Part shown: positions 214 through 12,285 of the stretch, one piece after another
Numbering within the stretch: the first letter of the stretch is position 1
Layout of the letters: every line of letters begins with the position of its first letter
Source of the DNA: Rhodoferax sp.
GTDB lineage: Bacteria > Pseudomonadota > Gammaproteobacteria > Burkholderiales > Burkholderiaceae_C
NCBI GenBank assembly: GCA_011391545.1
Contig: JAABQI010000285.1
Coordinates: 1-42,220, forward strand
DNA length: 42,220 nt
Direction: 5' to 3'
Notes under the pieces: generated by a model
What the model saw: only the letters and a program-made list of their open reading frames with translations
The model's database searches: none
Told to the model about the DNA's origin: nothing
Position numbers and translations under genes: made by a program

Positions 214-909
214 CTATTCAGTGCGCGCGACCACCAGGCCGGTGATGTGGGCGGCACCGGCGGCCCTGAGCACCCGTGCCGCGGTGTAGAGCGAGGTGCC
301 GGTGGTCATCACGTCGTCCACCAGCACCAGGCGCGCGCCCTTCAACAAGGACGCTTTGAGCGGGTCCACCGCAAAGGCCTGGTTCAGGCTGGTCAGCCGT
401 TGGGCGCGCTTGAGGGTGTGCTGCGCCGGCGTGTCGGCAACGCGCAGCAGGACATCGGCGCGGGTTTTGCGCGGGTTGAGTTGCTGCGCCAGCAGCAGCG
501 CCTGGTTGTAGCCGCGCACCTGCAGGCGCTGCCGGGACAGCGGCATGGGCAGCAACAGGTCGGCCGCATCGAGTGCATGCTCGACCCAGGGCGTGGCCTT
601 GAGCAGATCGGCAAAGAACCTGACCACGGCGGGTTGGTCGTGAAACTTGAAGTCGGCCATCAAATGCGCCCAGGGAAAAGCGTAGGACACGGCTGCCAGG
701 CACAGGTCCAGCGGCGGTGCTTCTTTCAGGCAGGCACCGCATCGCGTCAAACCGGCGGGCAAGGGCAGGGCGCAGCTGCCACAGCGGTGCAGGGGTTGGG
801 CAAATTCGGCCACGCAGGCGTCGCAAACGGGTTGCGCCGGCCAGCTGCGGCAAACGCGGCACTGGCTGGCGGGTGGGCGCAACATCCCTGAAAACAGGCT
901 TGTGAACAT
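214..909 (-). CDS. comF: ComF family phosphoribosyltransferase
   Basis: N-terminal CxxC pairs and the PRPP motif LVLVDDVMTTGTSLYTAARVLRAAGA. Start likely MFTSLFSGM at 909; the ORF track extends to 948. Confidence 0.85.
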   Translation of the reverse strand: MFTSLFSGMLRPPASQCRVCRSWPAQPVCDACVAEFAQPLHRCGSCALPLPAGLTRCGACLKEAPPLDLCLAAVSYAFPWAHLMADFKFHDQPAVVRFFADLLKATPWVEHALDAADLLLPMPLSRQRLQVRGYNQALLLAQQLNPRKTRADVLLRVADTPAQHTLKRAQRLTSLNQAFAVDPLKASLLKGARLVLVDDVMTTGTSLYTAARVLRAAGAAHITGLVVARTE

Positions 910-946
910 ACAGTCAATATACTCGCGTCTCTTTTTCAAATGCGCC

Positions 947-1867
947 ATGGCTGACCAAAACCCTCCCTCCGTTGACCCTCAGGCCGCGCGGCGCTGGCAC
1001 AAGCGGCCGGTGGCCGAGTCTGCCTGGCTGCATGAAGAGGTGGCGCGGCGCATGCAGGAGCGGCTCGACTGGATCAAGAGTCAGCCCCAGAGCTGGGTGC
1101 ATTGGGCGCCGCTCAATGGCGGGATGGAGGCCCATGCCTTGTTGCAGCAACGCTACCCGAAGGCGGCCTGTACCCTGGTCGAGACCAGCGAGGCGCGCGC
1201 CCAGCATGTCGCGCGGAACGTGGCACCGCCCTGGTGGCAGGCGCAGCGCTGGTTGCACGCCAAGCCCCAGGTGGTCACGCAAGTGACGCAGCCCGCCCAG
1301 ATGCTGTGGGCCAACATGAGTTTGCACATGACCGATCAGCCCCAGGCCTTGCTGCAGCAGTGGCATCAGGCCCTGGCGGTGGATGGCTTCCTGATGTTTT
1401 CCTGTCTCGGTCCCGATACGCTGAGGGAATTGCGCGCGCTGTACCGGGCTTTGGGCTGGCCCGCGCCGAGCCATGAATTCACCGACATGCACGATTGGGG
1501 CGACATGTTGGTGGCGGCTGGTTTTGCCGAGCCGGTGATGGACATGGAGCGCATCACGCTCACGTTCGAGACGCCGCAGCGCGTGCTGCAGGAATTAAGG
1601 GGCCTGGGGCGCAACCTCCATCTGGAGCGCTTTCAGGCTTTGCGCGGGCGCCGCTGGCACGGCCAGTTGCTGCAGGCCATCGAAAATAGCGCCATGCAAG
1701 TCACGTTTGAAGTGGTGTATGGCCATGCCTTCAAGCCGGCATCCAAGCTCTCGGTGCGGGCGCAAAGTGAAATTTCCCTGGATCAGATGCGCGCCGCCCT
1801 GACGCGCGGCAAAGTCCAGGGCGCTGCTCGCGCCATTCCAAAATCGGGTCTTGACCAATATGAATGA
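947..1867 (+). CDS. BioC-like SAM-dependent methyltransferase
   Basis: MADQNPPSVDPQAARRWHKRPVAESAWLHEEVARRM...; contains FLMFSCLGPDTLRELRALYRALGW and a C-terminal BioC-like region. Start chosen at ATG 947 within ORF 902..1867. Confidence 0.7.
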   Translation: MADQNPPSVDPQAARRWHKRPVAESAWLHEEVARRMQERLDWIKSQPQSWVHWAPLNGGMEAHALLQQRYPKAACTLVETSEARAQHVARNVAPPWWQAQRWLHAKPQVVTQVTQPAQMLWANMSLHMTDQPQALLQQWHQALAVDGFLMFSCLGPDTLRELRALYRALGWPAPSHEFTDMHDWGDMLVAAGFAEPVMDMERITLTFETPQRVLQELRGLGRNLHLERFQALRGRRWHGQLLQAIENSAMQVTFEVVYGHAFKPASKLSVRAQSEISLDQMRAALTRGKVQGAARAIPKSGLDQYE

Positions 1868-2087
1868 ATTTGAATTTCGCTGGGTGCTGATGGTGCTGGT
1901 TCTGCTGATTTTTGGCTTGTCGTTTGCGGCGCTGTTGTGGGCGGCTTGGCGTCACCATCGCCGTGGCGACCTGGATAGGGGCAACTTTCATAGCTCACTG
2001 GCTGTCGAGATGGCCTGGACGGTTGCGCCTTGCATCATCGTGTTGCTGCTGGTATGGCCGACGGCGCGCGTTTTCTGGACCCATTGA
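1860..2087 (+). CDS. Small membrane protein resembling only the transmembrane hairpin of cytochrome c oxidase subunit II
   Basis: MNEFEFRWVLMVLVLLIFGLSFAALLWAAWRHHRRGD...AVEMAWTVAPCIIVLLLVWPTARVFWTH. Two TM segments with the COX2 TM2-type motif VExxWTxxP; the ORF stops before any CuA domain. ATG overlaps the upstream stop. Confidence 0.65.
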   Translation: MNEFEFRWVLMVLVLLIFGLSFAALLWAAWRHHRRGDLDRGNFHSSLAVEMAWTVAPCIIVLLLVWPTARVFWTH

Positions 2088-2232
2088 CCGCACCAGGATT
2101 GCCTTGGGTATGGGGTTTCCCCCTGTGTTTTACGGGCAATTTTGGGAGGATGATCCATTAGAATAGATTGATAGATGTCAACCAAACGTTCAATCGTTGA
2201 CCATCACTCCCCCAAAAGAAGGACAGCAATTT

Positions 2233-3084
2233 ATGCGTAGCATGTACAAGTTTGCCCTGAGCGTTCTGCTGGCGTCAGGTTCGGCTGCCGCTTTGGCGGG
2301 ATATGCCTACAATTTTCCGGATCCGGTGACACCGATTGCCCGCGAAACGCTGCACATGCACAACCTGGTGATGGTGGTGATCCTGGTGCTGTTTTTCCTG
2401 GTGTTTGGTCTGTTGATCTATTCTTTTCGCGTGCATCGCAAGGACGCCGGTTACAAGGCGGCCAATTACACGGGACCGACCAACCGCAAGCAATGGCTCT
2501 GGGTGCTGTCACCGTTTGCCCTGCTGGCCTTCCTTGATTACGTGGTAATTGGTATCCCTGCCTACCATGCGGTGGTGATGTACGAAGACACCAAGACCGA
2601 CGCCGAATTGGTGGTGAAGGTGACGGGCAGCCAGTGGTTGTGGCAATACGAGTTTCCTGCTGAGGGCGTGAGCTTCACCAGTCGCATGACGACCCCGCGC
2701 GATCAAATTGACAGCGGCGCTGCCAAGGGTGAGCATTACCTGCTGGAGGTGGACAACCCGCTGGTCTTGCCTGTGAACAAAAAAGTGCGTTTCATCACCA
2801 CCTCGAATGACGTGATCCACAGCTGGTGGGTGCCGGCGTTTGGTGTCAAGCGCGATGCGGTTCCTGGCTTCCTGCGGGAATTCTGGGCCACGGTTGAAAA
2901 AACCGGCACCTACCGCGGTCAATGTTCCGAGTTGTGTGGCAAGGAGCACGGTTTCATGCCGGTCGTGGTCAATGTGGTGACTCAGGAAGAGTTCGCCACC
3001 TGGCTGGCCAGCAAAAAGGCCGCAGCGGCACCAACAGCGGCCGTTGCGCCCGTTGCGCAGCTGGTGCTTGCAAAAGCTCAGTAA
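2233..3084 (+). CDS. coxB: Cytochrome c oxidase subunit II
   Basis: CuA site CSELCGKEHGFMPVVV; VKVTGSQWLWQYEFP; signal peptide. ATG 2233 preceded by a purine-rich RBS (ORF track uses TTG 2197). Confidence 0.93.
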   Translation: MRSMYKFALSVLLASGSAAALAGYAYNFPDPVTPIARETLHMHNLVMVVILVLFFLVFGLLIYSFRVHRKDAGYKAANYTGPTNRKQWLWVLSPFALLAFLDYVVIGIPAYHAVVMYEDTKTDAELVVKVTGSQWLWQYEFPAEGVSFTSRMTTPRDQIDSGAAKGEHYLLEVDNPLVLPVNKKVRFITTSNDVIHSWWVPAFGVKRDAVPGFLREFWATVEKTGTYRGQCSELCGKEHGFMPVVVNVVTQEEFATWLASKKAAAAPTAAVAPVAQLVLAKAQ

Positions 3085-3124
3085 TCCCGTATCAGTTTTA
3101 GAAATTCAGCAGAAGGAGTTGGCA

Positions 3125-4729
3125 ATGGCACACGATATGGCACATGGCTTGCCGGTAGGTGATTCCCATGCGGGGCATTACAAGGGGGGTTGGCTGCGCT
3201 GGCTGGAAACCACCAACCACAAAGACATCGGGATCATGTACCTGATTTTTGGCTTTGCCATGCTGTTTGTCGGTGGCGCCATGATTCTGGTGGTGCGCGC
3301 CGAGTTGTTTCAGCCCGGCCTGCAATTTGTGCAGCCCGAGCTGTTCAACCAGTTGATCACCCTGCATGGTTTGGTCATGGTGTTTGGCTTTGCCATGCCG
3401 GCGGCCACCGGCCTGGCCAATTACATGCTGCCCATGATGATTGGCGCGCCTGACATGGCGCTGCCCCGTTTGAACAACTGGGGTTTCTGGATCTTGCCGC
3501 CAGCGGCCATCATGCTGACGCTGCCGTTCTTCCTTGGTTTGATGGGTGTTGGCCCAGGTGGCGTCGATACCGGCTGGACCATGTACGCACCGCTGTCGAT
3601 TCAAAGCGGCTGGGGCATGGACTTTGCCATTTTTGCCATTCACATGCTCGGTGTGTCGTCCATTCTGGGCTCGATCAACGTGATTGTGACCATCTTGAAC
3701 ATGCGCGCGCCCGGCATGACCATCATGAAGATGCCGCTGTTCGCCCATGGCTTCCTGATGACGGCCGTGCTGCTCATCACCATCATGCCGGTGTTTGCCG
3801 GGGGTGTGACGATGGTGCTGATGGACCGTCACTTTGGCACCCATTTCTTCAACGCCGCCGGTGGTGGTGACCCGGTGCTGTGGCAACACATCTTCTGGTT
3901 CATGGGCCACCCCGAGGTGTATGTGCTGCTGCTGCCGATTGCCGGCGCGCTGCCGCATGTGTTTTCGGCCTTTGCCCGCAAGCCGATTTATGGTTACAAG
4001 GCGCAGGTGTATTCCTTCTGGTGGATTGCCGGACTGGGCTTGATCGTGTGGGCGCACCACATGTTCACCAGCGGCATGTCGCTGGGCGGGCAGCTCTATT
4101 TCATGTACATCACCATGGCGATCTCGTTCCCGCTGGCGGTGCTGTTTTTCTGCTGGATAGCCACGGTCTGGCAGGGTTCCATTTCGTTTGAGACGCCGAT
4201 GCTGTTTGCCCTGGGCTTCCTGGTGTTGTTTGGCTGGGGCGGCCTGACCGGCCTGGCCCTGTCGGACGCCGCCGCCGACCCGCAGTACCACAACGCCTAC
4301 TTCCTGGTGGCGCACTTCCATTACGCGTTTTACCCGTCGGCGGTGATGGGGGCGATGGCGGCGGTGTATTACTGGCTGCCCAAGTGGACCGGCCACATGC
4401 TTGATGAAACCATGGGCAAGTGGCACTTCTGGGTGGCCGTGGTGGGCTTCAACCTGACCTTCATTCCGCAGTTTTTTGTCGGCCTGGCGGGCATGCCGCG
4501 CCGTATTCCAGACTACCCGCTCATGTTCACCGAATGGAACATGCTGTCGAGCATTGGTGCCTTTATTCTGGGTGCGTCCCATCTGATCTTTGTCTATAAC
4601 GTGGTCAAGACCATCAAGGGTGGTGAAAAGGCGGGTGACAAGGCATGGGAAGGTGCCGAGGGTCTGGAGTGGACTGTGCCATCCCCCGCGCCCTACCACA
4701 CCTTCGAGACGCCTCCGGTCATCAAGTAA
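3125..4729 (+). CDS. coxA: Cytochrome c oxidase subunit I
   Basis: TNHKDIG, GAPDMALPRLNN, GHPEVYVLLLP, WAHHMFTSGM, VAHFHY and GMPRRIPDY motifs. ATG 3125. Confidence 0.96.
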   Translation: MAHDMAHGLPVGDSHAGHYKGGWLRWLETTNHKDIGIMYLIFGFAMLFVGGAMILVVRAELFQPGLQFVQPELFNQLITLHGLVMVFGFAMPAATGLANYMLPMMIGAPDMALPRLNNWGFWILPPAAIMLTLPFFLGLMGVGPGGVDTGWTMYAPLSIQSGWGMDFAIFAIHMLGVSSILGSINVIVTILNMRAPGMTIMKMPLFAHGFLMTAVLLITIMPVFAGGVTMVLMDRHFGTHFFNAAGGGDPVLWQHIFWFMGHPEVYVLLLPIAGALPHVFSAFARKPIYGYKAQVYSFWWIAGLGLIVWAHHMFTSGMSLGGQLYFMYITMAISFPLAVLFFCWIATVWQGSISFETPMLFALGFLVLFGWGGLTGLALSDAAADPQYHNAYFLVAHFHYAFYPSAVMGAMAAVYYWLPKWTGHMLDETMGKWHFWVAVVGFNLTFIPQFFVGLAGMPRRIPDYPLMFTEWNMLSSIGAFILGASHLIFVYNVVKTIKGGEKAGDKAWEGAEGLEWTVPSPAPYHTFETPPVIK

Positions 4730-4747
4730 GTTGAGTTCGAGACACCG

Positions 4748-4894
4748 ATGAAATTGCCTGAAACGCAAAACAGCCCCTTTGATGCGGCCGAGTGGGAAAA
4801 GCGCAAGCGTGGCAACAAGCGCCTGGGCTACGTCATTGCTGTCATTGTGTTGGCCATATTTTTGGGTTCCATATGGAAATACCGCCCCTTTTGA
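4748..4894 (+). CDS. Small single-TM protein between coxA and ctaG (putative oxidase small assembly/accessory protein)
   Basis: 48-aa ORF MKLPETQNSPFDAAEWEKRKRGNKRLGYVIAVIVLAIFLGSIWKYRPF*, one TM helix; overlaps the ctaG start by 22 nt. Too short to appear in the ORF track. Confidence 0.7.
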   Translation: MKLPETQNSPFDAAEWEKRKRGNKRLGYVIAVIVLAIFLGSIWKYRPF

Positions 4895-5445
4895 CAGGAC
4901 AGACCGGGGCTGAGCGTCAGCGCAGCAATGTGCGGATGGCGATCAAGCTCGGTTTTGTGGCCCTGTTCTTTGTCGGTTTTGGCTTCGGCATGGTGCCCCT
5001 GTACGACGTGTTTTGCGAGATCACCGGACTCAACGGCAAAACCAACAGCGTGGCCATGGAGGCAAACAAAAACACGCAGGTCGATCTGTCGCGCTCGGTC
5101 AACGTCGAGTTCTTGAGCCACACCATGCCCGGCGTGGGCCTGAGCTTCAAGCCCGAGCAGTTCTCCATTCGCATCCACCCCGGCGAGATTTCCCGCATGA
5201 ATTACACCGTGACCAACAACAGTGACCAGGTGTTTGTGGGGCAGGCCATTCCCAGTGTGACCCCCGCGGTGGCGTCGCTGCACTTTGAGAAGCTGGAGTG
5301 TTTCTGCTTCGAGCAGCAAACCTTCCAGCCGGGCGAGTCGCGCACCATGCCTGTGGTGTTTGTCGTCAATCCGAAGATGGACCGTGATCTGCGCACCGTG
5401 ACGCTCTCGTACACATTTTTTGAAGCCATCAAGACAAAAAGCTGA
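4873..5445 (+). CDS. ctaG: Cytochrome c oxidase assembly protein CtaG/Cox11
   Basis: MVPLYDVFCEITGLNGKT and KLECFCFEQQTFQPGESRTMPVVFVVNP (Cox11 CFCF copper motif). Confidence 0.93.
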   Translation: MEIPPLLTGQTGAERQRSNVRMAIKLGFVALFFVGFGFGMVPLYDVFCEITGLNGKTNSVAMEANKNTQVDLSRSVNVEFLSHTMPGVGLSFKPEQFSIRIHPGEISRMNYTVTNNSDQVFVGQAIPSVTPAVASLHFEKLECFCFEQQTFQPGESRTMPVVFVVNPKMDRDLRTVTLSYTFFEAIKTKS

Positions 5446-5460
5446 CCGTTAAGGAAAAAA

Positions 5461-6324
5461 ATGACAAACGCTACCCAAGCTACTGCGCGCGGACATTACT
5501 TTGTGCCGGCTGCCAGCCATTACTCGACGTTCTTGTCGGTCGGCATCTTCATGCTCGCCCTCGGCTTCATTTTCAGGATCAACGGCATTCCCCCAGGCAT
5601 CTGGAGCATGCTGATTGGCGCAGCGCTGATCATTTATGTGATTGTGGGCTGGTTTGGCGAATTGATCAGTGAAAACCTGCGCGGCGCCTACACCCTGTGG
5701 GAAGACCGCTCCTACCGCATCGGCATGGTCTGGTTCATCTTCTCTGAGGTGATGTTTTTCGCCTGCTTCTTCGGTGCGCTGTATTACCTTCGCCAGATTT
5801 CGCTGCCGGAGCTGGGTGGCTACGAGGCGATGTTTACGCCCTATGAAAAGTTCACCAGTGCCTGGCCCAGCGCCGGCCCAATGGGCGACCCCTTCACCCC
5901 GATGGCTGCCTGGGGCATTCCCGCCATCAACACCATGCTGCTGCTGACATCAGGTGCCACGCTGACCTGGGCGCACTGGGGCCTCATCAAAGGCAAGCAA
6001 AGCCAGCTCACCTGGGGTCTGGCCATGACGGTCGCGCTGGGCATCACCTTCATGGGTTTTCAGGTGTATGAATACGCCCATGCCTATGCCGAGATGGGCC
6101 TGACGCTGGGTGCTGGTGTTTATGGCGCCACGTTTTACATCCTGACCGGTTTTCACGGCATGCACGTCACCTTGGGCACCATCATGCTGATCGTCATGCT
6201 GGGGCGTGGCATGAAAGGTCACTTCTCGGAGCACAACCATTTTTCCTTTGAGGCGGTGGCCTGGTACTGGCACTTTGTGGACGTGGTCTGGCTGATTCTG
6301 TTTGTGTTTGTTTACATTCTTTAA
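5461..6324 (+). CDS. coxC: Cytochrome c oxidase subunit III
   Basis: SEVMFFACFFGALYY, TGFHGMHVTLGT, AVAWYWHFVDVVWLILFVFVY. Confidence 0.95.
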   Translation: MTNATQATARGHYFVPAASHYSTFLSVGIFMLALGFIFRINGIPPGIWSMLIGAALIIYVIVGWFGELISENLRGAYTLWEDRSYRIGMVWFIFSEVMFFACFFGALYYLRQISLPELGGYEAMFTPYEKFTSAWPSAGPMGDPFTPMAAWGIPAINTMLLLTSGATLTWAHWGLIKGKQSQLTWGLAMTVALGITFMGFQVYEYAHAYAEMGLTLGAGVYGATFYILTGFHGMHVTLGTIMLIVMLGRGMKGHFSEHNHFSFEAVAWYWHFVDVVWLILFVFVYIL

Positions 6325-6357
6325 GACTGCCATTCACCCGCCATTGTTGGCCGGCAC

Positions 6358-6373
6358 GCCCGCGAAAGCGGGC
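6358..6373. terminator. Short hairpin GCCCGC-GAAA-GCGGGC between convergent coxC and the DUF2909-type gene
   Basis: Perfect 6-bp stem with GNRA-type loop in the convergent intergenic region; T-tract weak. Confidence 0.45.
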
Positions 6374-6381
6374 TTCAGAGA

Positions 6382-6588
6382 TCAGCCCCGGCCTGGAATC
6401 AGGCCGAAATAAAAGCTGGCGACCAGCACCACAAACAAGCCGATCGACAAGCTGATGCGCACGGTCAGGGCTTGCACCACCCGTTTGCGCTTGTCCGGGT
6501 CGTCGGTCTTGAAGAGCAGGGCCAGCGCACTGAATAGGCTTACCAAAATCAGTGCCAAGGTTCCCAGAATTAAAATTTTCGCCAGCAT
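6382..6588 (-). CDS. Twin-transmembrane protein (DUF2909-like)
   Basis: 68 aa MLAKILILGTLALILVSLFSALALLFKTDDPDKRKRVVQALTVRISLSIGLFVVLVASFYFGLIPGRG; conserved position between coxC and surf1. The ORF track start (7269) is a shadow extension. Confidence 0.8.
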   Translation of the reverse strand: MLAKILILGTLALILVSLFSALALLFKTDDPDKRKRVVQALTVRISLSIGLFVVLVASFYFGLIPGRG

Positions 6589-6618
6589 CGCAGTCTCTTT
6601 GAAAAGTTTGACTGCATT

Positions 6619-7359
6619 ATGCTTTTTAACCATTGGCCCATGTTCCAGAATCGTTTCCAAATCCGCCTGATCCCCACGTTGGCCATGCTGCTGGGCCTGG
6701 TCATGTTCATCTATCTTGGGCTTTGGCAAAGCGGCAAGGGTGACCGTCTGGCCCTGGAACTGGCGCAGCGCGCGCAGCGCAGCCAGTTGGGTCCCACCGT
6801 GATGACCGGGCAATTGGTGGATGCCCAGGCGGCACAGGATGCAGCCTTCAACGTGATGGGGACCTACGAGGCGCAGCACCAGATTTTTCTGGACAACCGC
6901 CAGGAGAATGACCAGCCCGGCGTCCACGTCATCACCCCCTTGAAGATTGAAGGGAGTGAAACCCGTGTCCTGATCAACCGTGGCTGGATTGGCTGGACCC
7001 AGGGGCGCTCGGTGCTGCCGGTGGTGGCAACACCCGACGGCCGGGTAAAGATTACCGGCATCGCCAACGTCCCGTCCACCAAGAAGTTTTTCCTGATGCC
7101 GGAGCATGCCGAGGCGCAGGCCACGCTGTGGTCGCGGGTGGACCTGCAGCGCTTCGAGAAACTGGTTGGCCATCCGCTGCAGCCGGTCGTTTTGCAGCAG
7201 ACCGGCGGTGACGCGCCCGACACGCTGGTGCGCCGTTGGATGCCCCCGGAAGACCGCGTGGGCATGCACCGGGGCTATGCGTTTCAGTGGTTTGGCATGG
7301 CGGCTGCGCTGCTGCTGTTTTACCTGTTTGCCAGTTTCCGAAAAAGTGAGACGTCATGA
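6619..7359 (+). CDS. SURF1 family cytochrome oxidase biogenesis protein
   Basis: N- and C-terminal TM helices, VLINRGWIGW, location in the cox cluster. Confidence 0.88.
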   Translation: MLFNHWPMFQNRFQIRLIPTLAMLLGLVMFIYLGLWQSGKGDRLALELAQRAQRSQLGPTVMTGQLVDAQAAQDAAFNVMGTYEAQHQIFLDNRQENDQPGVHVITPLKIEGSETRVLINRGWIGWTQGRSVLPVVATPDGRVKITGIANVPSTKKFFLMPEHAEAQATLWSRVDLQRFEKLVGHPLQPVVLQQTGGDAPDTLVRRWMPPEDRVGMHRGYAFQWFGMAAALLLFYLFASFRKSETS

Positions 7360-8033
7360 GCCAGCCGCAACCGGACGAAGTGCTGGGGCTGACCGTGCAT
7401 TCCTTGCCCAAGCCGGGCGAGGCGGCTGGATCTGCTTCGAGCGGCCGTTTGAAGCTGCTGGCGATTCTGCTGGCCTGTTCACTGCCGGTGTTGGTGGCTT
7501 ATTTTGTTTTTTACGTGGTGCGTCCGCAGGGCGAGGCGCACCTCGGGGAGCTGATCACACCGGTGCGGCCGGTGCCCGCAGCACAGGGCACTGGACTGGA
7601 CGGGGCGCTGGTGCCCTTGCCTTCGCTCAAGGCGCAGTGGCTGCTGGTCAAGGTCGATGGTGGCGCCTGCGTGCAGGACTGCCAGAAGCAATTGACGGTC
7701 CTGCGTCAGTTTCGCCTGATGCTGGGCAAGGACATGGACCGCCTGGACTGGCTCTGGCTGATCAACGACCAGGCGCCGGTGTCGCCCGCGCTGGCAGCCG
7801 GCCTCAAGCACGACGGCGCCACCGTGCTGCGCGTCGATGCCGACACGCTGGCCGCCTGGCTGCCAGCGCCCGCGGGCAAAGCGCAGCAGGACTTCATTTA
7901 CGTGGTGGACCCGATGGGCAACACCATGATGCGCTTCCCCTCCACGCTTGACAGCGCGGCAGCAAGCAAAGCCAAGCGCGACATGGCGCATTTGCTGCGC
8001 GCCTCCTTGACATGGGATTCCCCTGGGCGCTAA
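7356..8033 (+). CDS. Membrane-anchored thioredoxin-like cox cluster protein (hypothetical)
   Basis: Overlaps surf1 end (ATGA); single TM then a thioredoxin-like domain LLVKVDGGACVQDCQKQL; sits between surf1 and ctaA. Confidence 0.7.
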   Translation: MSQPQPDEVLGLTVHSLPKPGEAAGSASSGRLKLLAILLACSLPVLVAYFVFYVVRPQGEAHLGELITPVRPVPAAQGTGLDGALVPLPSLKAQWLLVKVDGGACVQDCQKQLTVLRQFRLMLGKDMDRLDWLWLINDQAPVSPALAAGLKHDGATVLRVDADTLAAWLPAPAGKAQQDFIYVVDPMGNTMMRFPSTLDSAAASKAKRDMAHLLRASLTWDSPGR

Positions 8034-8056
8034 GGCGCGTCACCAGGCCGCACCCC

Positions 8057-9259
8057 ATGAACGCGCAACCCCTTTACGACCTGACGCCGCTGGCCAGCCT
8101 GCTGGGCCTGGGCGCGTTGCTGGCGTTGGGCCCGCTGGCATGGATCTACTGGCGCAACCGCCGCAGCGCGCCGCTGCATCGGCTGCAGGCCTTGCGCCTG
8201 TTCACCCTGTTTCTGACCTTTGACTTGATCCTGTTCGGCGCCTTTACCCGGCTCACCGATTCGGGACTGGGCTGCCCGGACTGGCCCGGTTGCTACGGCA
8301 ACACCTCGCCGCTGGGAGCCCGTCATGCCATCACGGCGGCGCAAGACGCCATGCCCACTGGCCCGGTGACGCAGGCCAAGGCCTGGATCGAGATGATTCA
8401 CCGCTACCTGGCCACAGGGGTTGGTGCCTTGATCCTGATGTTGACCGTGGCCAGCTGGCGGAACTGGCGCGCCCGCGTTCGCTCGGGACCGGCGGGTCGC
8501 TGGGTTGAGCTGTCGCCCTGGTGGGCCACTTTCACCCTGTTCTGGGTCTGCTTGCAGGGCGCGTTTGGTGCCTGGACGGTCACTTGGAAGCTGTTTCCAG
8601 CCATCGTCACGCTGCATTTGGCTGGCGCTCTTGTGCTGCTCGCGCTGCTGGCCGTGCTGGTCGTGCGTGGCAGCACCGCCACCGTGCCACTGGCCATGTC
8701 GCAGCCAATGCGGCGCTGGCTGGCGCTGGTCGTTGCCTTGCTCGGGCTGCAAATATTGCTGGGCGGCTGGGTCAGCACCAATTACGCGGTGCTGGCGTGC
8801 AGCGACTTTCCCCAGTGCCAAAACCGCTGGTGGCCCGAGATGAATTTTCAGCAAGGGTTTGAACTTTGGCGCCACCTGGGCGTGACCGGGACCGGCGAGC
8901 CCATCAGCTTTGCCGCCCTGACCGCCATTCACTATGTGCACCGGCTGATGGCCTACGTGGTGTTGACGCTGCTGGCGGTGCTGGCCTGGCAGTTGAACCG
9001 CCTGGCCGCGTGGCGCGTCCACAGCCGCGTGCTGGCGGCGCTGGTCGGCCTGCAACTGGCCACCGGCCTGAGCAATGTGGTGCTGGACTGGCCGCTGTGG
9101 GCGGCGCTGCTGCACACCGGGGGCGCGGCCGCGCTGGTGCTGACGCTGACCTGGATCGCGGCGAGCGCGGCGCCCGTCACCCGCGCAGCGGTGCCTGCCA
9201 CGCTGCGCGCCCGCGCCGCCGCCCTGCCAGAGCAGACCGAATCCGGAGGGCTCGCATGA
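8057..9259 (+). CDS. ctaA: Heme A synthase (COX15/CtaA)
   Basis: [39 protein letters not shown]; multiple TM helices. Confidence 0.93.
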
Positions 9260-10149
9260 GCACCCTGGCCCGTCCCACAGTCATGTCGGTGTTTGCGCAG
9301 TATTACGCGCTGACCAAGCCGCGCGTGATCCAGTTGATCGTGTTTTGCGCCCTGATCGGCATGGTGCTGGCGGTGCCCGGCGTGCCGTCCTGGCGCGAGG
9401 TGGGCGTGGCCGCCATCGCCTGCCTGGGCATCTGGCTGGTGGCGGGCGCTGCGGCAGCCCTCAATTGCATCATCGAAAAAAGCATTGACGCCAAGATGAA
9501 GCGCACCGCCTGGCGTCCCACCGCCAAGGGCGAGCTCGGCGACCGGCAAACGCTGTTGTTTTCAGCCACCCTGTGCGCAGCCGGCTCGGGCCTGCTGTAC
9601 TTTGCGGTGAACCCGCTCACCATGTGGCTCACGTTTGCCACCTTCATCGGTTATGCGGTCATTTACACCGTGATCCTGAAGCCGCTGACCCCGCAAAACA
9701 TCGTGATCGGCGGGGCCTCCGGCGCCATGCCGCCGGTGCTGGGCTGGGCCGCCATGGCTGGCAATGTGGGGCCGGAAGCGCTGATTTTGTTTTTGATCAT
9801 CTTCCTGTGGACGCCGCCGCACTTCTGGGCGCTGGCGCTTTACCGGGTGGAGGACTACCGCAAGTCCGGCCTGCCGATGCTGCCGGTCACGCATGGCAAC
9901 GAATTCACCCGGCTGATGGTGCTGCTCTACACCTTCATCCTGCTGGCTGCCTGTTTGCTGCCGTTCATCTACGGCATGAGTTCCTGGCTGTACCTGGTTG
10001 TTGCGGTGCTGCTCAACGCCGTGTTTATTCTGCATGCGTACTGGTTGTGGCGCGACTACTCCGACCTGCTGGCGCGCAAAACCTTTCGTTTCTCGCTGAT
10101 CCACCTGAGCCTGCTGTTTGCCGCCCTGCTGATCGACCATTACCTCTGA
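9256..10149 (+). CDS. ctaB: Protoheme IX farnesyltransferase (CtaB/CyoE)
   Basis: [73 protein letters not shown] overlaps the ctaA stop. Confidence 0.95.
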
Positions 10150-10201
10150 CGGCCATTCGTTCGCCGGTGCCTGTCCTCTGGCCCGGTTTATCATCGACGG
10201 C

Positions 10202-10813
10202 ATGAACAAACGAAACGCACTCAAATCACTGGCGGCCTGCGCCATGCTGGCAGGCACGTCGAGCCTTTTTGTGGCTTGCTCGCCCAACGCCCCCCAATTC
10301 ACCGCCATTGACATCACCGGCGCCGATTACGCCAAGGACTTCGCACTGACCGACCACAACGGCCAGGCGCGCACGCTCAAGGACTTTCAGGGCAAGATTG
10401 TCATGGTGTTCTTTGGCTACACCCAGTGCCCGGACGTGTGCCCGACGTCGATGGCCGAGATGGCCGAGATCAAGCGGCTGCTGGGCAAGGACGGCGAGCG
10501 CATCCAGGGCATTTTCATCACCGTCGATCCCGGGCGCGACCAACCCGAGATGCTCAAGGAATACATGGCCGCCTTCGACCCCAGCTTTCTGGCGCTGGTG
10601 CCGACGCCGGAGCAACTCGTCGCGCTGGCCAAGGACTACAAGGTCTATTACAAAAAAGTGGACGGCCCCACGCCCACCAGCTACACCATGGACCACACGG
10701 CAGGCAGCTATGTCTACGACACGAGCGGCAAGCTGCGCCTGTTCACGCGCTACGGCACCAAGCCCGAGTTGACGGCAGCCGACATCAAGCAGTTGCTCGC
10801 TCAAGCGTCATAA
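10202..10813 (+). CDS. SCO1/SenC family copper chaperone
   Basis: GYTQCPDVCPTSMAEM (CxxxC), ITVDPGRDQPEMLKEY, DHTAGSYVYD. Confidence 0.93.
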   Translation: MNKRNALKSLAACAMLAGTSSLFVACSPNAPQFTAIDITGADYAKDFALTDHNGQARTLKDFQGKIVMVFFGYTQCPDVCPTSMAEMAEIKRLLGKDGERIQGIFITVDPGRDQPEMLKEYMAAFDPSFLALVPTPEQLVALAKDYKVYYKKVDGPTPTSYTMDHTAGSYVYDTSGKLRLFTRYGTKPELTAADIKQLLAQAS

Positions 10814-10845
10814 CAGCGCCGGTGCCGCCCGGCTAATATGCGGGC

Positions 10846-12285
10846 ATGACAACGACTTCGCTGGCGTTCCTGCTGCAGTTGGCGCAGGTGATTGCGCCCC
10901 CGCTCTATCTGGCCTGCGCGCTGGCAGTGACGGTGCACGCCCTGCTCAACAAGCGGGAAGTGCACACGGCCATTGGATGGATCGCGCTGGCCTGGCTGAC
11001 GCCGCTGCTGGGCGCCTTGCTGTACCTGATGCTCGGCGTGAACCGCATCCAGCGCGCCGGTGTGGCCCTGGGGCTGAAGGACACCTGGCACGGCGAGGGT
11101 TGCAGCGCGGCTGATACCGATGGCCCCTGTCTGCCTGAACTCGAGGGCGTCAACCGGCTCGCCGGCGGCATCAACGACCGCAGCTTGCTTGCCGGCAATG
11201 CGGTGACGCCGCTGGTTCAAGGCGATGAGGCCTTCCCGGCCATGCTCGCCGCGATTGACGGCGCGCGCCACTCGGTGACGCTGCTGAGCTACATTTTTAA
11301 TGACGATGCGGCCGGGCGCCCTTTTCTGCAGGCGCTGGTGCGGGCAAAGGGGCGAGGGGTGCAGGTGCGGGTGCTCATCGATGCGGTGGGCGCGCGCTAC
11401 AGCCGCGTCAGCATGGTCAAGCAACTGCGTCTTGCCGGCGTGCCCGTGGCGGCATTTCTGCCGCCGCGCCTGACCCGCTTGCTGGCGCAGGCCAACCTGC
11501 GCAACCACCGCAAGATCATGGTGGTCGATGGCACGCTCGGCTTCACCGGCGGCATGAACATCAGTGCCAGTCACTGGCTGTCTAAGCAGCCGCCGAAGGC
11601 TTTTCAGTGCCTGCATTTCGCGGTGCGCGGTCCGGTGGTGACCGACCTGCAGCGCACCTTTGCCATCGACTGGGGCTTTACCACCGGCGAGAGCCTGCTA
11701 GGCAGCCCGTGGTTTGCCGACAACCCGCCGTGCGGGCCGGTGCTGGCGCGCGGCGTCTCCGACGGCCCGGATGCCGACATCGACCGCATGCGCCTGGTGA
11801 TGCTGGGTGCGTTGGCCAAGGCGCGCCAGCGGGTGCGCATCGTCACGCCCTATTTTTTGCCCGACAACGTGCTGCTCACCACGCTGCAGGTGACGGCCTT
11901 GCGCGGTGTCGCGGTGGACATAGTGCTGCCCGGGCGCAGCAACCTGCCCTTGATCGACTGGGCCATGCGGCCGCAGTGTGCCGACCTGGTTGCCAGCGGC
12001 TGCCGGGTGCACCTGACCGGCCCGGCGTTTGACCATACCAAACTGTTTCTGGTGGACGATGCCTGGTCGCTGATCGGCTCCACCAACTGGGACGCGCGCA
12101 GCCTGCGCCTGAATTTTGAATACAACCTTGAATGTCACGATGCGCAACTGGTGCGGCAACTCGATGTGCTGGTCGAAACGCGCATAAAGCGCGCGCACCG
12201 GCTCACTGCGGCTGAAATCGAGGGCCAATCTTTGGCGGGGCGGCTGCGCGACCGGCTGGTCTGGCTGCTGTCACCTTACCTGTAA
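10846..12285 (+). CDS. Cardiolipin synthase (phospholipase D superfamily)
   Basis: Two HKD motifs: NHRKIMVVDGTLGFTGGMN and DHTKLFLVDDAWSLIGSTNWD; N-terminal TM helices. Confidence 0.92.
   Translation: MTTTSLAFLLQLAQVIAPPLYLACALAVTVHALLNKREVHTAIGWIALAWLTPLLGALLYLMLGVNRIQRAGVALGLKDTWHGEGCSAADTDGPCLPELEGVNRLAGGINDRSLLAGNAVTPLVQGDEAFPAMLAAIDGARHSVTLLSYIFNDDAAGRPFLQALVRAKGRGVQVRVLIDAVGARYSRVSMVKQLRLAGVPVAAFLPPRLTRLLAQANLRNHRKIMVVDGTLGFTGGMNISASHWLSKQPPKAFQCLHFAVRGPVVTDLQRTFAIDWGFTTGESLLGSPWFADNPPCGPVLARGVSDGPDADIDRMRLVMLGALAKARQRVRIVTPYFLPDNVLLTTLQVTALRGVAVDIVLPGRSNLPLIDWAMRPQCADLVASGCRVHLTGPAFDHTKLFLVDDAWSLIGSTNWDARSLRLNFEYNLECHDAQLVRQLDVLVETRIKRAHRLTAAEIEGQSLAGRLRDRLVWLLSPYL

Follow-up and report, generated by a model that had tools for sequence, protein, structure and literature searches.

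A natural clade of A-family cytochrome c oxidases without the K-channel lysine, in Rhodoferax and other beta- and gammaproteobacteria

In bacterial A-type cytochrome c oxidases, the K-path takes up about two protons when the catalytic site is reduced, and the D-path takes up six (PMC6934443). Besides the tyrosine, the subunit I residues defining the A-type K-channel are K354, T351 and S291 (PMC3084760), and the cavity at the channel mouth is walled by helices VII, VIII and TM2 (PMC10095113). In Rhodobacter, the K362M mutation blocks the K-path and stalls catalytic-site reduction, and the view of the field is that the D-channel is unable to replace the K-path (PMC10341450). Families B (ba3) and C (cbb3) have no K-channel Lys, and these enzymes are also devoid of a D-channel and keep a K-like Thr/Ser/Tyr path (PMC3084760). 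The idea of a K-channel loss within family A is not new, since Degli Esposti et al. (2021) marked variants of the K-channel on their tree of family A and discussed independent losses, seven of them under one hypothesis (PMC8239418). That tree, however, is of archaeal COX1, and the main text of the paper mentions neither the beta/gamma clade reported here nor the Asp in subunit II or the free-standing hairpin (PMC8239418). A search of openly accessible literature found no description of these three features.

The DNA stretch analysed, hereafter the window (42,220 nt of a Rhodoferax sp. contig; all positions refer to it and all features lie on the + strand unless indicated), encodes CoxA and CoxB within an intact beta-proteobacterial cox operon. 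The coxA gene (3125–4729; 534 aa; PF00115, 491 bits) codes for subunit I of a K-less A-type oxidase, whose model gave Rhodobacter and Paracoccus subunit I as best Foldseek matches (TM 0.87–0.89). Helices VI–X aligned with Paracoccus 1AR1 chain A with zero gaps, the K-channel helix reading PLAVLFFCW in CoxA and PTGIKVFSW in 1AR1. In this alignment, Leu340 (4142–4144, codon ctg) occupies the position of the K-channel Lys (K354 in Paracoccus, K362 in Rhodobacter), Leu337 (4133–4135) that of the Thr (T351/T359), Pro277 (3953–3955) that of the Ser (S291/S299) and Cys343 (4151–4153) that of the Ser/Asn (S357/S365). The Rhodobacter and bovine residue numbers were compared with printed alignments where possible. 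The original prediction, which had read the ctg codon as a Leu at the K-channel Lys and the FPLAV helix as the K-channel helix, was thus right on both counts; misalignment of the helix is ruled out by the gap-free alignment together with the structural match to solved enzymes. A hydrophobic residue at the K-channel Lys is also found in the Rhodobacter K362M oxidase (3OM3) but, unlike that laboratory mutant with an inactive K-channel, the window encodes a natural, selected enzyme in which the whole path is replaced.

No Lys or Glu relocated within helices VI or VIII of CoxA was found, and K292 (Arg in some relatives), where helix VII starts on the cytoplasmic side, is the single basic residue gained in the vicinity. 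A new Lys or Arg at the old mouth would presumably be unhelpful for capturing protons. Together with Lys292, Gln294 (3998–4006 for the two) lies in the wall of the K-channel-mouth cavity; it was read in all 30 main-clade representatives, the canonical enzymes having Met. Ser334 in helix VIII (4124–4126) is Ser in all K-less sequences and usually Ala in canonical enzymes. Nine of the 14 CoxA columns separating the main K-less clade from canonical sequences (a small insertion excluded) fall in the K-channel wall formed by helices VI, VII and VIII, a clustering for which the P value of 4e-6 is descriptive only, as the region was drawn after the columns had been seen. These alignments fully support a clade-wide loss of the K-channel core from subunit I.

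The D-channel and the active site had been expected to be intact, and this largely held. The ligands H81, H262, H311, H312, H397 and H399 and the cross-linked Tyr266 are invariant in 29 sequences, and seven of the eight published D-channel residues are retained, including Glu264 of helix VI; the exception is the Ser134 equivalent, which is Gly120 in the window CoxA and Ser in the Sulfuricella type. Across the clade, the D-channel residues Y39, N99, D110, N117, S179, N185 and E264 are invariant or nearly so. Of the features by which A-type heme-copper oxygen reductases are recognised (PMC3084760), CoxA thus has the His ligands, the Tyr and the D-channel with its Glu, and lacks the K-channel of Lys354, Thr351 and Ser291. 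It does not belong to family B or C either, as it has a D-channel and no Thr/Ser/Tyr path. The CtaD/CoxA equivalog TIGR02891 (NCBIfam) scored 654.8 bits, below the curated cut-off of 670.75, and the remaining NCBIfam models scored far lower relative to their own cut-offs. Judged from its sequence, CoxA is therefore an A-family member by descent and by its D-channel, and not a typical two-channel A-type enzyme. With the A1-type aa3 oxidases (Paracoccus 1AR1, Rhodobacter 1M56) it shares the fold, the metal ligands, the cross-linked Tyr, the D-channel with its Glu, a CuA subunit II and the operon gene set, and it differs from them in the missing K-channel Lys/Thr/Ser, the replaced entrance Glu, the Asp in TM2 of subunit II and the extra hairpin ORF of its locus.

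A further difference was observed at H389-N390 (4289–4294), where Asn is found in place of a Rhodobacter Asp and some relatives have His or Gly. The corresponding residue is D412, a Mg/Mn ligand in Rhodobacter. Close to this site, D381 is a new Asp, invariant across the main K-less clade.

Subunit II, encoded by coxB (2233–3084; 283 aa; COX2 and COX2_TM matches), scored 174 bits with the CoxB equivalog TIGR02866 (NCBIfam), over the curated cut-off of 147.7, and its CuA ligands H196, C231, C235 and H239 are invariant, with E233 and M242 nearly so. The alignment places Gln87 (2491–2493) at the K-channel entrance Glu of the ExxWTxxP motif (E101-II in Rhodobacter). Of the Gln or Lys (2488–2493) originally proposed for this position, the Gln was thus confirmed and the Lys was not, K86 (2488–2490) being the adjacent residue. 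Among homologues, most K-less members have Gln at the entrance, the sister group has Arg and the Methylotenera types keep Glu.

A residue absent from canonical enzymes, Asp102 (2536–2538), was found in the middle of TM2. It is invariant in the K-less clade, occurring in every readable K-less subunit II, the deep sister group included, and the canonical ones, more than 70, all lack it; in the main clade, it sits inside a short TM2 insertion. In AlphaFold (AF2) models built from 29 sequences, of moderate confidence, residues 85–119 form a single unbroken helix with D102 at its centre. The residue lies 15 positions above the entrance, on the conserved face of TM2 according to conservation mapping, and by homology it would lie about as deep as the heme a3 site. 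On an ideal helix, it is directed 100–170 degrees off the entrance position.

Most K-less relatives have a CoxB of 380–410 aa with a CxxCH domain at the C-terminus and, in this fusion to cytochrome c, resemble caa3-type A-family oxidases; the window CoxB, unlike these, has no cytochrome c domain, and the canonical caa3 sequences read here keep the K-channel. Since Rhodoferax-type loci have CoxB both with and without the domain, it was probably lost within the Rhodoferax-type branch.

The divergence extends beyond the two subunits, so that the description 'otherwise canonical', given in the original prediction, had to be abandoned: coxB, coxA, ctaG, coxC and SURF1 are all strongly divergent, a buried Asp lies in an insertion within TM2, and the mouth wall is rebuilt. 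Downstream of coxA lie a small cytochrome oxidase assembly ORF (4748–4894; 48 aa; NF038351 at 23.9 bits, just under the cut-off of 27.5), ctaG for the CuB assembly factor (4873–5445), coxC for subunit III (5461–6324) and a SURF1-like gene (6619–7359), the last of the divergent block. Between coxC and SURF1, a 68-aa ORF with two TM segments (6382–6588, - strand) is conserved in K-less operons and was not found in the canonical congener L159. Identity to L159 is 41% for coxB, 58% for coxA, 45% for ctaG, 45% for coxC and 37% for SURF1, against 77–98% for the coxB-SURF1 block compared with K-less congeners (ctaG 77–94%, coxC 87–93%, SURF1 78–86%). The flanking genes comF, bioC, the gene after SURF1, ctaA, ctaB and sco are 51–85% identical to those of L159. 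Comparison of window positions 214–12285 with L159 gave a sharp mosaic, the divergent coxB-SURF1 segment lying between orthologous flanks, and the K-less block occupies the place that the canonical block has in the canonical congener. Since coxB-SURF1 is divergent while the flanks remain orthologous, coxB to SURF1 look to have been replaced in place as a block.

A search of named genomes, mostly MAGs, with a discriminating fragment retrieved at least 80 loci from separate species-level genomes, all K-less. Carriers are Rhodoferax and other Comamonadaceae MAGs, Rhizobacter, Sulfuricella sp. T08, Methylotenera, Methylopumilus, and Rhodocyclaceae and gammaproteobacterial MAGs. Methylophilaceae are among the families in the clade. 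The helix motif is nonetheless rare, being matched in 13 of 399 genomes in an even sample of the order and 3 of 369 in one of the class, counts that include the window's own genome and some matches that are not CoxA. Within the genus, 15 genomes have a K-less CoxA (84–98% identical to that of the window where full-length), 15 have a canonical one (about 60%), with the K-channel Lys read in all 15, and none has both. Both enzymes occur together in some gammaproteobacterial genomes (G115, G193). No second, canonical CoxA was found in the window genome, which is 79% complete, or in the complete, single-contig congener G010, in which coxA of the K-less kind is the only A-type oxidase gene, accompanied by a cbb3-like gene, a bd gene and a third, more distant family member, perhaps NOR-like.

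In a tree computed from an alignment excluding the K-channel columns, 33 K-less and 39 Lys-bearing CoxA representatives were split on a single branch (support 100/98), and the loss of the Lys in subunit I maps as one change. A deep sister group of other gammaproteobacteria (L133, L144 and L150) falls on the K-less side; its members have Leu or Ile for the Lys, Val for the Thr and Ala or Gly for the Ser, with Arg at the entrance Glu and the TM2 Asp present in subunit II. Among close relatives, coxA has a median dN/dS of 0.034, which indicates strong purifying selection. As K-less and Lys-bearing sequences separate on one branch, the K-less CoxA is, on this phylogeny, a single old change that has been retained and not local drift; drift or a pseudogene is ruled out by dN/dS of about 0.03 and conservation across the clade. 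The prediction that random drift was not at work was borne out by the at least 80 loci sharing the change and by the gathering of the separating columns in the K-channel wall. Among 52 further CoxA of the phylum, one independent K loss was found (L209, genome G859). This divergent A-like oxidase is altered in both channels, Gln standing at the K-channel Lys and Asn at the D-channel Asp, with the Glu retained. L209 is without the TM2 Asp, which is therefore not obligate after loss of the Lys.

The correlated loss of both channel ends in two subunits, as initially proposed, needs to be restated. The entrance Glu is indeed gone in most members, but the Methylotenera types keep it without the Lys, so strict coupling of the two losses was rejected. 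Since the loss in subunit I is a single change on the tree, the correlation amounts to one event, and it cannot serve as repeated evidence. Moreover, a His and a Glu from the mouth motif are still present in this genus, on another polypeptide. This is encoded by orfS (1860–2087), a previously unannotated ORF of 75 aa upstream of coxB, consisting of a lone subunit II transmembrane hairpin (Pfam COX2_TM, PF02790, 28.4 bits over residues 9–67, gathering cut-off 22.8) with the mouth motif NFHSSLAVEMAW (H44, E50); a profile search found only the hairpin and no CuA domain. The motif NFHxSxxVExxW is thus retained by OrfS and lost from CoxB. The ORF is present at 46 loci, with H44, E50, W53 and P57 invariant in 36 distinct sequences and a median dN/dS of 0.096. 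Of the 15 K-less genomes in the genus, 14 have it (the contig of the fifteenth begins inside coxB), against none of the 15 canonical ones (Fisher P 2e-7, shared ancestry not corrected for). In a hairpin tree, made by a quick method on a short alignment with few columns, K-less CoxB formed its own group (SH-aLRT 100) and OrfS fell outside it, with canonical CoxB, so OrfS was rejected as a copy of K-less CoxB. Nor is it a universal part of K-less operons, being confined to the Rhodoferax-type branch and one Thiobacillus MAG, where it has 130 aa and a signal-like N-terminus. In the simplest reading, orfS would be a remnant of the displaced canonical coxB, since retained for a purpose, and its product is a candidate new subunit or assembly factor.

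That the enzyme works is argued by its one origin, its long retention, the low dN/dS and its place as sole A-type oxidase in G010. If a selected enzyme has no K-path, the protons of that path must be taken elsewhere, and altered proton uptake in the reductive phase, already implied in the original prediction, would follow from established work (PMC10341450). We tentatively favour, at somewhat less than even odds, a working A-family oxidase (aa3, derived from caa3) that has lost the K-channel and takes protons via the D-channel alone. The old K-path would then carry no protons and the D-channel would supply all proton uptake. Helices VI–VIII in their remodelled form, together with the subunit II Asp102, would close off the former path and tune the site; orfS would be what is left of the displaced canonical CoxB, a stump retained in the role of a small subunit or an assembly helper. 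This reading is supported by the replacement of the Lys, Thr, Ser and entrance Glu with the D-channel and metal sites kept; the inability ascribed to the Rhodobacter D-channel counts against it.

The new invariant polar residues D102-II, Q294, S334 and C343 hint instead at a route that was rebuilt rather than sealed. A K-path moved to the subunit I/II interface, running from K/R292, Q294 and Cys343 to D102, which would assume the role of the Lys, and from there on to Ser334 and Tyr266, OrfS perhaps supplying a His/Glu mouth in the Rhodoferax branch, is a serious alternative, since the changes fell in helices VII, VIII and TM2 bordering the cavity, and one that we consider possible but doubtful. 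It would account for the exclusive presence of D102, mid-helix and on the conserved face, in K-less subunit II, for the concentration of altered subunit I columns in helices VI–VIII and for the mouth His and Glu kept by orfS. On the other hand, D102 faces away from the entrance position and could instead have a partner in TM1, for example H43 or N44; loss of the Lys and gain of the Asp are one event, an association without replicates that cannot establish coupling, and the independent loss in L209 came without a TM2 Asp. The more specific proposal of a K-channel rebuilt across subunits, with the TM2 Asp replacing the Lys and OrfS as a new small subunit supplying the mouth in the Rhodoferax branch, appears unlikely.

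Quite improbable, in our judgement, is a slow or weakly coupled enzyme, whose reductive phase would be rate-limiting without a K-path and tolerable in slow-growing or low-oxygen bacteria with cbb3 and bd oxidases. The cbb3-like and bd genes of the complete congener agree with it, and K-blocked mutants of model enzymes still deliver one electron to the site (PMC10341450), but it is the only A-type oxidase of G010 and strong purifying selection extends over many families, Methylophilaceae and Sulfuricella included. A degenerate, non-functional or artefactual CoxA, for which only the MAG-like, incomplete assembly of the window genome could speak, is practically dismissed by the gap-free alignment, the loci from many genomes including a complete one, the low dN/dS and the intact operon.

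The need for two channels and for the K-channel Lys in A-type oxidases has been inferred largely from mutants of a few model enzymes. The favoured reading of uptake through the D-channel alone, if true, would give the K-less enzymes a single proton inlet, as in families B and C, and make them the mirror image of those families, which use the K-like path only. A large natural clade is without the K-channel Lys, and the K-less and canonical species within one genus are natural test pairs: either one inlet, the D-channel, serves the whole catalytic cycle or another proton route exists.
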